The translations under genes and the position numbers were made by a program. Under the pieces are notes generated by a model. The model did no database searches. It saw only the letters and a list, made by a program, of their open reading frames with translations, and was not told where the DNA came from. From Halorubrum sp. 48-1-W (GTDB taxonomy: Archaea; Halobacteriota; Halobacteria; Halobacteriales; Haloferacaceae): DNA of 42,395 nt. This document shows, piece by piece, positions 1-42,395 of the stretch (position 1 is the stretch's first letter; each line of letters opens with the position of its first letter). The DNA lies in assembly GCF_003287355.1 (NCBI RefSeq), contig NZ_QMIM01000038.1, forward strand, positions 1-42,395, given 5' to 3'.

Positions 1-2
1 AC

Positions 3-50
3 GACACCCTCAAGCGCGAGGGCGTCAGCCCGAGCGGTAGGGTGGGGTAG
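3..50 (+). CDS. 3' end of an unidentified upstream gene (partial)
   Basis: Reading from base 3 gives an open frame DTLKREGVSPSGRVG ending in TAG at 48-50. Almost every codon ends in G or C, as in typical genes of this window, and this frame is more gene-like than the other two over the same bases. The 15 visible residues are too few to identify a family. The gene would start left of the window. It could also be chance, since the stretch is short. Confidence 0.35.
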   Translation, partial: DTLKREGVSPSGRVG

Positions 51-51
51 T

Positions 52-243
52 TCACTGGAAGAAGCCAGAATCGATCCACCAGTTCGATATGAGACGGATG
101 GAGAAGACGGTGAAAGCGCGTTTCCCCACGTGTATGGCCCGTTAACGCTGGACCCTGTCGCTGAGATCTTCCCCTTCGAACAGGACGAAACCGGGTTCCG
201 GCTTCCCGAAGCGCTGTTAAATACCGCTTCCACGAACGACTGA
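52..243 (+). pseudogene. DUF952-like C-terminal fragment
   Basis: The frame ending in TGA at 241-243 encodes a tail with VRYE, then FPHVYGPLTLDPV and IFPFE followed by GFRLPEAL. This matches my memory of the C-terminal half of DUF952 proteins, where an arginine-tyrosine-glutamate segment precedes the conserved FPHxYGPL motif. The frame stays open to base 1, but no ATG or GTG lies in it before the motif. Upstream of about base 52 it becomes DUF952-unlike while another frame looks coding. Codons here end in A or T far more often than in neighbouring genes. I read it as a decayed or transferred remnant; the alternative is a 5'-truncated gene running in from the left edge. Confidence 0.5.
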
Positions 244-40584: not shown

Positions 40585-40741
40585 GTGTCATCACCGATCG
40601 ACGGGCACGGCACCCCACGAAGACGCGATTCGCGAGCCTCCTCGGGCCACCGCGCCCCTCGATCCAGTCCGTTCTACCGGACGGTTTTGCCGGTTGGGTA
40701 ATCAAACTGCCGGCGACCGCCTCGTCGATCGGTTCGCTCAC

Positions 40742-40774
40742 GGAGAGGAAGCCCACGACCTCAGTCGTGGGTAA
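40742..40774 (+). mobile_element. IS200/IS605-type right-end relic with TnpB tail GEEAHDLSRG
   Basis: The frame 40742-40774 reads GEEAHDLSRG and stops in TAA, the characteristic last residues of one group of haloarchaeal IS1341-type TnpB proteins. The same bases form a hairpin, CCCACGAC-ctca-GTCGTGGG (40752-40771), with an 8-bp perfect stem as found at IS200/IS605 right ends and at the 3' part of TnpB omega-RNAs. Nothing upstream looks like the TnpB catalytic domain, so this is a solo end or decayed copy. Confidence 0.75.
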
Positions 40775-40874
40775 CTGACGTGAGCTGTATCGCCTACATC
40801 GGTTCGAATGGATCGACGGGGAACCCGCCGAACGCCGGAACAGAGTCGAAGCCACGTCGGCGTTGTGGACCACA

Positions 40875-41492
40875 TCACTCCCGGTCTCGAAGCTGCTGCC
40901 ACGAGAGAACCGCCCGCTGGAGCGCGGTGGCGTTGCTCGCGATCATGAAGAAGACGATCAGCCATCCGACGATCGTCAATCCGAGGTACTCCGCCCGGAT
41001 CCACACGGCGGCGATGCTCACGCCGCCGACGAGGAGCAGTACCTCGACCCGCGTGATGAGCCCCTCGTACATCCGACCGAGCCCGACGGCCTGCGCCTGC
41101 GTGCCGACGTAGGCGTTCAACAGGATCCCGACGATCGCGACGAAGCCGATGTCGAAGCGTCCGATCCCCGCTACGAGCCCGCCGAGTATCACCACGTCGG
41201 CGTAGCGGTCGACCAGGTGATCTAGGAAATCCCCTTCCGGCGTCGCGCTGTCGGTTTGGCGGGCGAGGGCTCCGTCGAGCATATCCAGAAAGCCGTTGAA
41301 CAACACCAACACACCGCCCAGCAGGTACCACGACGGGTCGCCTCCGGCGATCGCCAGGACGACTGCGGCGGCGACGGCGACCCCCATGGACGCGACGGTC
41401 ACCGCGTTCGGCGACAGTCCGAGGCGGTCGGCGACGGAGACGAACGGCGTGATCGCCCGGTTCGATATCGTTCGAAACCTGTCGAGCGTCAT
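40875..41492 (-). CDS. CDP-alcohol phosphatidyltransferase family protein
   Basis: A 205-residue membrane enzyme with about six helices. The catalytic motif D-x2-DG-x2-AR-x8-G-x3-D-x3-D is complete: Asp70, Asp73-Gly74, Ala77-Arg78, Gly87, Asp91 and Asp95, in LDMLDGALAR and GDFLDHLVD. Such enzymes transfer a phosphoalcohol from a CDP-activated lipid to a hydroxyl acceptor; in haloarchaea this would make a polar archaeal lipid such as archaetidylglycerol or archaetidylinositol phosphate. The acceptor cannot be told from sequence. It is flanked by two IS right-end relics. Confidence 0.9.
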   Translation of the reverse strand: MTLDRFRTISNRAITPFVSVADRLGLSPNAVTVASMGVAVAAAVVLAIAGGDPSWYLLGGVLVLFNGFLDMLDGALARQTDSATPEGDFLDHLVDRYADVVILGGLVAGIGRFDIGFVAIVGILLNAYVGTQAQAVGLGRMYEGLITRVEVLLLVGGVSIAAVWIRAEYLGLTIVGWLIVFFMIASNATALQRAVLSWQQLRDRE

Positions 41493-41850
41493 CGTCGCGG
41501 ATACCTCGTTCCGCCCCCGCTGTCATCGTCTTTCGACCTCGCGATCGGAGCCAGAACCATGGGCAAGGGCTCTCGCGGGACCGATAAAAAGTGCTCCATC
41601 GGTCCGGGCCGCGGTCGCCAGTCGCCCTCGCACCGCTCACCGTCTCGAAATATGCCGCCTCGGCTTTGGTGATGGTTGTAAGCAATACGAACGCGCTCCT
41701 CCCCTCCCTACTCGCTCCCGATAGTCGCTCCTTGAGGAAGGGGACTCCGCGCTACCGCTTTAGTTGAACCCCGCAGGAGAACACCGACCGATCCACGTCA
41801 TGTCAGAAACCGCGTGTGAGCTCCGGAGGTGTACGGGGCAGAACGGCTTT
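41493..41850. other. Intergenic region with IS relic and no gene
   Basis: No convincing gene is seen in these 358 bases. A GATAAAAAG stretch (41583-41591) could serve as a TATA-like element. The minus-strand IS right-end relic occupies 41698-41752. The rest shows nothing I can interpret. Confidence 0.6.
41698..41752 (-). mobile_element. IS200/IS605-type right-end relic (minus strand)
   Basis: Read on the minus strand, GGAGTCCCCTTCCTCAAGGA followed by GCGAC and later GAGCGAGTAGGGAGGGGAGGA is the conserved tail of haloarchaeal IS1341-type tnpB genes, which commonly end in LKER-containing peptides (here FLKERLSGAS). TCCCCTTCCT and AGGGAGGGGA (41735-41744 and 41700-41709) form a 10-bp stem with one G-T wobble. 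It closely parallels the relic at 42316-42370 with different stem bases. No transposase body remains. Confidence 0.75.
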
Positions 41851-42237
41851 TCATTCGGATCGAGAACTGGAAAGACTCCCCTCGACGTGCTCGCAGGACC
41901 GAAACCGTCCCCAGATCGATCGGCGGTCGGCGACGAATCGGTAGCCACGTTCTCGAATCCATCCCGAATACGGAAGCAGACGCGCCGTGTGAACGAGATA
42001 TCGACCGACGATCCCACAGCGGCTGACACACTCTTCAAGCGCTCGACCGCAGGAGTACACGGCTTCGTCGGTCAACAGGTGCATACAGGTCTCGTATCCG
42101 TCCGGAAGCCGGGCCTTCTGATCCGCCGTGAGTTCGCTGAACCCCACGGGATCGAACCTGCCAAACCGCACCAACCACCGAATCATGTACATACAGAAAC
42201 CGCACTCATCGTCGTAAACGAGGCGTGGCACAGCCAT
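41851..42237 (-). CDS. DCC-family thiol-disulfide oxidoreductase (DUF393)
   Basis: A 128-residue thioredoxin-like protein. The family motif reads LVYDDECGFCMYMIRW: Asp10 with redox cysteines Cys12 and Cys15 (D-x-C-x2-C). LTADQKARLP and a later RALEECVSRCGIVGRYLV are consistent. Codons end in A or T more often than in neighbours, so it may be a recent arrival, and IS right-end relics pointing outward flank it. A TATA-like CATAAAATAG (about 42261-42270, minus strand) sits about 28 nt before its ATG. DCC proteins are commonly partners of HTTM proteins; the HTTM gene at 32594 is the only candidate here. Confidence 0.88.
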   Translation of the reverse strand: MAVPRLVYDDECGFCMYMIRWLVRFGRFDPVGFSELTADQKARLPDGYETCMHLLTDEAVYSCGRALEECVSRCGIVGRYLVHTARLLPYSGWIRERGYRFVADRRSIWGRFRSCEHVEGSLSSSRSE

Positions 42238-42260
42238 ACAGGTGATTTGGAGCGGTCACT

Positions 42261-42270
42261 ATTTTATGTT
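42261..42270 (-). promoter_or_regulatory. TATA-like box of the DCC gene
   Basis: CATAAAATAG on the minus strand is about 26-30 nt before the ATG at 42237 and predicts a nearly leaderless mRNA, as for other genes in the window. Confidence 0.55.
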
Positions 42271-42315
42271 CTCCCGAGCGGGTGACCGAGACGCAGTCTT
42301 CAGCATTTTCGAGGT

Positions 42316-42370
42316 GGAGCCCCCGACCTCAAGGAGCGAACGGAGTGAGCGAGTAGGTCGGGGAGGAAAC
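42316..42370 (+). mobile_element. IS200/IS605-type right-end relic (plus strand)
   Basis: GGAGCCCCCGACCTCAAGGA followed by GCGAACGGAGTGAGCGAGTA and GGTCGGGGAGG is the conserved 3' tail of haloarchaeal IS1341-type tnpB elements; one frame reads GAPDLKERTE then stop. CCCCGACCT (42321-42329) and AGGTCGGGG (42355-42363) form a perfect 9-bp stem. It aligns with the relic at 41698-41752 but in the opposite orientation. Nothing upstream encodes TnpB, so it is a solo end. The bases after it (from about 42371) would be the guide position if an omega-RNA were made. Confidence 0.75.
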
Positions 42371-42395
42371 CGACATGGGACGACACAACCACCAC

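Follow-up and report, generated by a model that had tools for sequence, protein, structure and literature searches.

Three short sequences in an archaeal contig, here called relics 1, 2 and 3, are very probably termini of IS1341-type (tnpB-only) elements of the IS200/IS605 group, each preserved in a different state: relic 1 a core-deleted fusion of both ends, relic 2 a stranded left end, and relic 3 the left end of what is probably an entire element, the rest of which would fall in an assembly gap. By the same interpretation, their hairpins would be read by a Y1 transposase (TnpA) acting in trans. The window analyzed (positions 1 to 42,395) is the entire contig C26 of the Halorubrum sp. 48-1-W assembly, which has 69 contigs. 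As mobile DNA the relics are ordinary remnants of a kind already known; what the analysis adds is a corrected orientation and the recognition of a probable assembly artefact. The sequence-only reading had traced them to haloarchaeal IS200/IS605-type tnpB elements, and this origin is borne out by full-length relatives with the same ends.

Orientation of the three termini

All three relics had been taken for right ends carrying the tail of tnpB. For relics 2 and 3 this orientation is wrong: both match left-end profiles over their whole length (LE2, 83.9 bits, and LE3, 95.3 bits, respectively), while right-end profiles give at most 12.7 bits for relic 2 and 8.3 bits for relic 3. Relic 1 does contain a right-end tip (RE1 profile, 34.7 bits at 40749–40779), but its left half is the tip of a left end (LE1 profile, 22.4 bits at 40741–40771).

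A profile search of the genome returned 11 matches to the TnpB family PF01385, 10 of the 11 above the family cut-off, and four to the Y1 transposase family PF01797, of which one is partial and one carries a stop codon.

Relic 1 joins two element tips through one palindrome

Relic 1 (40742–40779, forward strand) is a 38-bp terminal-only element in which a left tip is joined to a right tip via the palindrome that both ends have in common. The target tetranucleotide TCAC is kept at 40738–40741 (forward strand) and abuts its left edge; the hairpin (40751–40772, forward strand) has a 9-bp stem and a 4-nt loop, with a predicted DNA folding energy of −9.9 kcal/mol (z −4.18). Full elements of this family have a left end of the form TCAC-AGAGG...GGAAGCCCACGGC...GCCGTGGGAGGAATCCGAC and a right end ACTGACAAGCCCACGACTTCAGTCGTGGGTCACTGAC. 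Relic 1 consists of the left half of the former and the right half of the latter, and is too short to hold a gene.

Other copies show the same arrangement. Classification gave 29 fusions (relic 1 and 28 others from the genus), 27 tnpB-type right ends and eight copies with the right side of a left end; these copies were picked by similarity to relic 1, and the ratio of fusions to right ends is thus a biased count. In some fused copies the stem is a hybrid, the left arm carrying GGC (the left-end type) and the right arm GTC (the right-end type), which places the fusion junction inside the palindrome. The left and right palindromes are nearly identical, and recombination of one with the other would delete tnpB and leave 38 bp with both tips and a single hairpin.

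Terminal-only elements of 52 bp in Haloquadratum walsbyi have been ascribed to precisely such repeat-mediated deletion between near-terminal palindromes (Dyall-Smith and colleagues, 2011, PMC3119063), and relic 1 fits this route. Like the terminal-only PATEs that derive from core-deleted IS605-type elements (ISHwa23 and HqIRS46; PMC3119063), it retains one palindrome and both tips; the two types are also alike in their length of about 50 bp, their target sequence of four to five bases and their lack of target duplication. They differ in that the elements described here are from Halorubrum and measure 38–50 bp, the likeness being one of structure, and in that empty sites are available here for two copies in other genomes. 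These two fused copies (in G016 and G027) lie directly 3′ of TCAC with no duplication; the corresponding empty sites end in CTCAC and the right flank follows directly. For relic 1 itself no clean empty site was found among relatives: the best candidate, in G012, shares the left flank up to 40733 and then diverges. A synteny search for empty sites of relics 1 and 2 showed that, in relatives, the genes on either side do not lie next to each other. The earlier suggestion of a transposition end-product or a nonautonomous element suits relic 1; relics 2 and 3 are left ends from upstream of a tnpB promoter.

Relic 2 is a stranded left end

Relic 2 (41670–41768, reverse strand; hairpin at 41701–41743, reverse strand) is a left end of the VADDYVRRTAITRL tnpB family that lacks both promoter and gene. 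It matches left ends at approximately 30 loci of the genus at 81–94%, the homology ending near 41670, short of the TATA box. In 19 of the 29 other loci, a TnpB frame 250 aa or more in length (418 aa in most, VADDYVRRTAITRL) starts just downstream. In the same genome, no full-length copy of this left end came up when the genus was searched. That no TnpB body is near was a correct observation for this relic, as it was for relic 1.

Adjoining relic 2 is an att-like segment (41622–41661, reverse strand) made up of a tRNA 3′-end fragment (GAGGCGGCA, probably of tRNA-Phe) and the sequence that usually follows it. The segment matches the region at and after the tRNA 3′ end in relatives at 94–97.5%; ARAGORN detected no tRNA in the window. 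Synteny with relatives is broken on the tRNA-fragment side of relic 2, and the fragment may mark a former integration at this break. Relic 2, at the border of the fragment, is what was left over after loss of the promoter, tnpB and the right end.

Between relics 1 and 2 lies a CDP-alcohol phosphatidyltransferase gene (40875–41492, reverse strand). This second, paralogous copy shares no more than 54% identity with its closest matches within the genus, and was probably acquired.

Relic 3 and the paired contig breaks

Relic 3 (42304–42395, forward strand; hairpin at 42321–42363, forward strand) is a left end of the MGVRRTAVVKL tnpB family that runs off the end of the contig. At its left edge is the target site TTCAG (42299–42303, forward strand). 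The 96 bases from 42300 to 42395 are 97–100% identical in a dozen genomes of the genus, with 96/96 matches in three (G006, G011 and G020). In most of these copies a TATA box comes next downstream of the left end, and after it a TnpB of the M(G/D)VRRTAVVKL type, about 415 aa in length. Among the copies with full identity, that in G006 has an open tnpB frame of 276 aa, and those in G020 and G011 show the first 68 and 32 codons, respectively, before their contigs end; left ends that are 99% identical (in G026 and G028) precede a full tnpB of 415–420 aa. Overall, 18 of the 29 other loci have, just downstream, a TnpB frame that is 250 aa or longer.

The TnpB frames of the relic 2 and relic 3 families match both PF07282 and PF01385, and both families possess a second, separate right-end hairpin 3′ of the tnpB stop; the right end of the relic 3 family is a different sequence, ATCAAAGCCCTACCC...GTAGTTTAC. 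In a TnpB of 415–418 aa with both domains, in hairpins near both ends, and in insertion 3′ of a short target with no duplication, the relic 3 family resembles haloarchaeal IS1341-type elements, from which relic 3 shows no difference of substance; relic 2 is a broken copy.

C26 ends before the start of tnpB: no tnpB follows relic 3 on the contig, yet the gene is present behind left ends of 98–99% identity in relatives. An explanation is found in the assembly. C26 and a second contig, C8, stop at the same base (...ACAACCACCAC) inside the left end. Two further contigs, C65 and C14, likewise share their first base (CGGGGAGCGGAGACGCACC), which lies inside the 3′ end of tnpB, with the right end after it. 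These paired breaks are the pattern of two near-identical copies with a collapsed middle. With the first 30 residues of the TnpB of this family as query, only two other loci (on C35 and C7) were found in the genome.

When C8 is joined to C14 across the element that follows TTCAG, an uninterrupted TnpB frame results (SIGIDLGI-LNYIHTSDGT); joining C8 to C65 gives none. C8 thus pairs with C14 and, by elimination, C26 would continue into C65. By our reading, joining these two makes whole again the CTGAC tip of another, fused element just beyond. From elimination and the restored tip, adjacency of C26 and C65 appears most likely. A search for support via relatives of the DCC1-like gene gave no match for this adjacency; the best named relatives of this gene, which stands beside relic 2, are from Halorubrum species and Halalkalirubrum.

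The sister copy on C8 and C14 is inserted 3′ of the same TTCAG sequence with no duplication. This relic 3 type element (loci L009 and L253 of G000) sits inside another tnpB gene, after SIGIDLGI.

Given the paired breaks, the missing TnpB body of relic 3 is most likely an effect of assembly, and relic 3, put forward as a solo end like the other two, most likely is not one; it most likely continues across the gap into C65. The left end that it represents probably belongs to a complete element that inserted at TTCAG, its tnpB and right end falling in the assembly gap. Paired contig breaks can, in this manner, make a complete transposon resemble a solo end.

Hairpin stems covary upstream of the tnpB promoter

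The hairpins described in the sequence-only reading are present where they were placed: the relic 2 stem (TTCCT/AGGGA) pairs with one T-G wobble, and the relic 3 stem (GACCT/AGGTC) pairs as well. The covariation proposed from these two stems holds on a wider sample. In a set of 31 left-end hairpins drawn from the families of relics 2 and 3, 97.8% of cells are standard pairs, both sides change in six of 13 pairs, and the covariation score was reached by none of 500 shuffles. Hairpins of this size are in themselves close to (slightly above) background: nine-bp stems with a 4-nt loop number 16 in the window against 8–13 in ten sequences simulated by a Markov model with matching dinucleotide composition; for stems with a 25-nt loop the figures are 17 against 8–14. 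Relic 2 folds weakly (z 0.12). In this GC-rich window it is homology, and not the fold, that carries the observation.

The position of the left-end hairpin bears on what its structure is for. It lies 52–94 bases 5′ of the start codon, upstream of a TATA box. In nearly all left-end copies the distance from this box to the start codon is 29–30 nt, a spacing typical of leaderless genes in haloarchaea. A hairpin upstream of the TATA box is unlikely to be part of the tnpB transcript. The covariation most likely arises from selection acting on the folded DNA strand that Y1 transposase reads, and not on an omega-RNA: supplied in trans, TnpA would read the hairpins as folded single-stranded DNA.

A tempting reading, and one that had been put forward, is that the relics are free-standing, omega-RNA-like guides usable by a TnpB encoded elsewhere. 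The genome encodes 10–11 TnpB proteins, omega-RNAs of IS200/IS605 elements are expressed in haloarchaea (PMC12558985), and the right-end tip of relic 1 corresponds to the point at which such an RNA would terminate in a full element. Nonetheless we regard the idea as highly improbable, and none of the relics finds support as a guide. As left ends, relics 2 and 3 lie on the side of tnpB that is wrong for a guide, 5′ of the TATA box; relic 1 comprises only 38 bp of fused tips and lacks the scaffold region normally found ahead of the right end. The layout of an omega guide, with the scaffold 5′ of the right-end hairpin and the guide 3′ of it, is found in none of the relics. The 16 bases 3′ of relic 1, sought as a target with TCAC in front, have no other match in the genome at fewer than three mismatches, and no Rfam family matches in the window. 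The parent elements do resemble OMEGA systems in encoding TnpB and in having a right-end hairpin where the omega-RNA would end; the relics differ in that no scaffold is kept in any of them and two are left ends.

The hairpins might alternatively act as intrinsic terminators or other RNA regulators of adjacent genes, a role for which their intergenic location, with relic 2 preceding the CDP-alcohol phosphatidyltransferase gene, could be cited. This too seems very unlikely: the same sequences are transposon ends at unrelated sites in dozens of genomes, and the stems are without a T-tract after them and without an Rfam match.

Are fused elements mobile by themselves?

Fusions of the relic 1 type could be more than scars of locally deleted full elements: they could be mobile units of approximately 40–50 bp that have one hairpin and are moved in trans, an idea also voiced for the Haloquadratum elements by the authors who described them (PMC3119063). 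One fused subtype, TCACATTGATTKCGAGGGC, has four copies in the genome, each about 48 bp long and at a separate location (L261, L264, L266 and L267), and no tnpB-bearing copy with the left tip of this subtype was found in 52 genomes of the genus. Together these observations hint at self-standing movement, although the four copies could instead descend from a full element since lost. The clean insertions in G016 and G027, seen against the empty sites of relatives, also speak for mobility; they are, however, equally compatible with direct insertion and with insertion followed by later deletion, and the hybrid stems fit deletion from full-length elements. Moreover, Y1 transposition in IS608 and ISDra2 unites two hairpins, one at each end, and a fused element offers one.

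On balance we consider it possible, but not probable, that the fusions are mobile units and not scars. The more specific proposition, that single-hairpin elements of about 38–50 bp, derived from fused IS1341-type ends, are moved as such by TnpA in trans, is a little more doubtful still, and we think it unlikely. If true, few mobile elements would be smaller than the fused ones; whether a separate hairpin is needed at each end would come into question, and the fused ends would provide a test of the two-hairpin requirement of Y1 transposition.

A further terminus in the window

A terminus absent from the list of the sequence-only reading is found at the opposite edge of the contig. Positions 1–55 (forward strand) hold a tnpB element's right end, truncated where the contig begins, and then its flank. 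By eye these bases are identical to the final 55 bases of the tnpB element at L007, and they score 20.1 bits with the RE2 profile; judged by this match, the segment is a genuine tnpB right end. Both edges of C26 thus fall within transposon copies.
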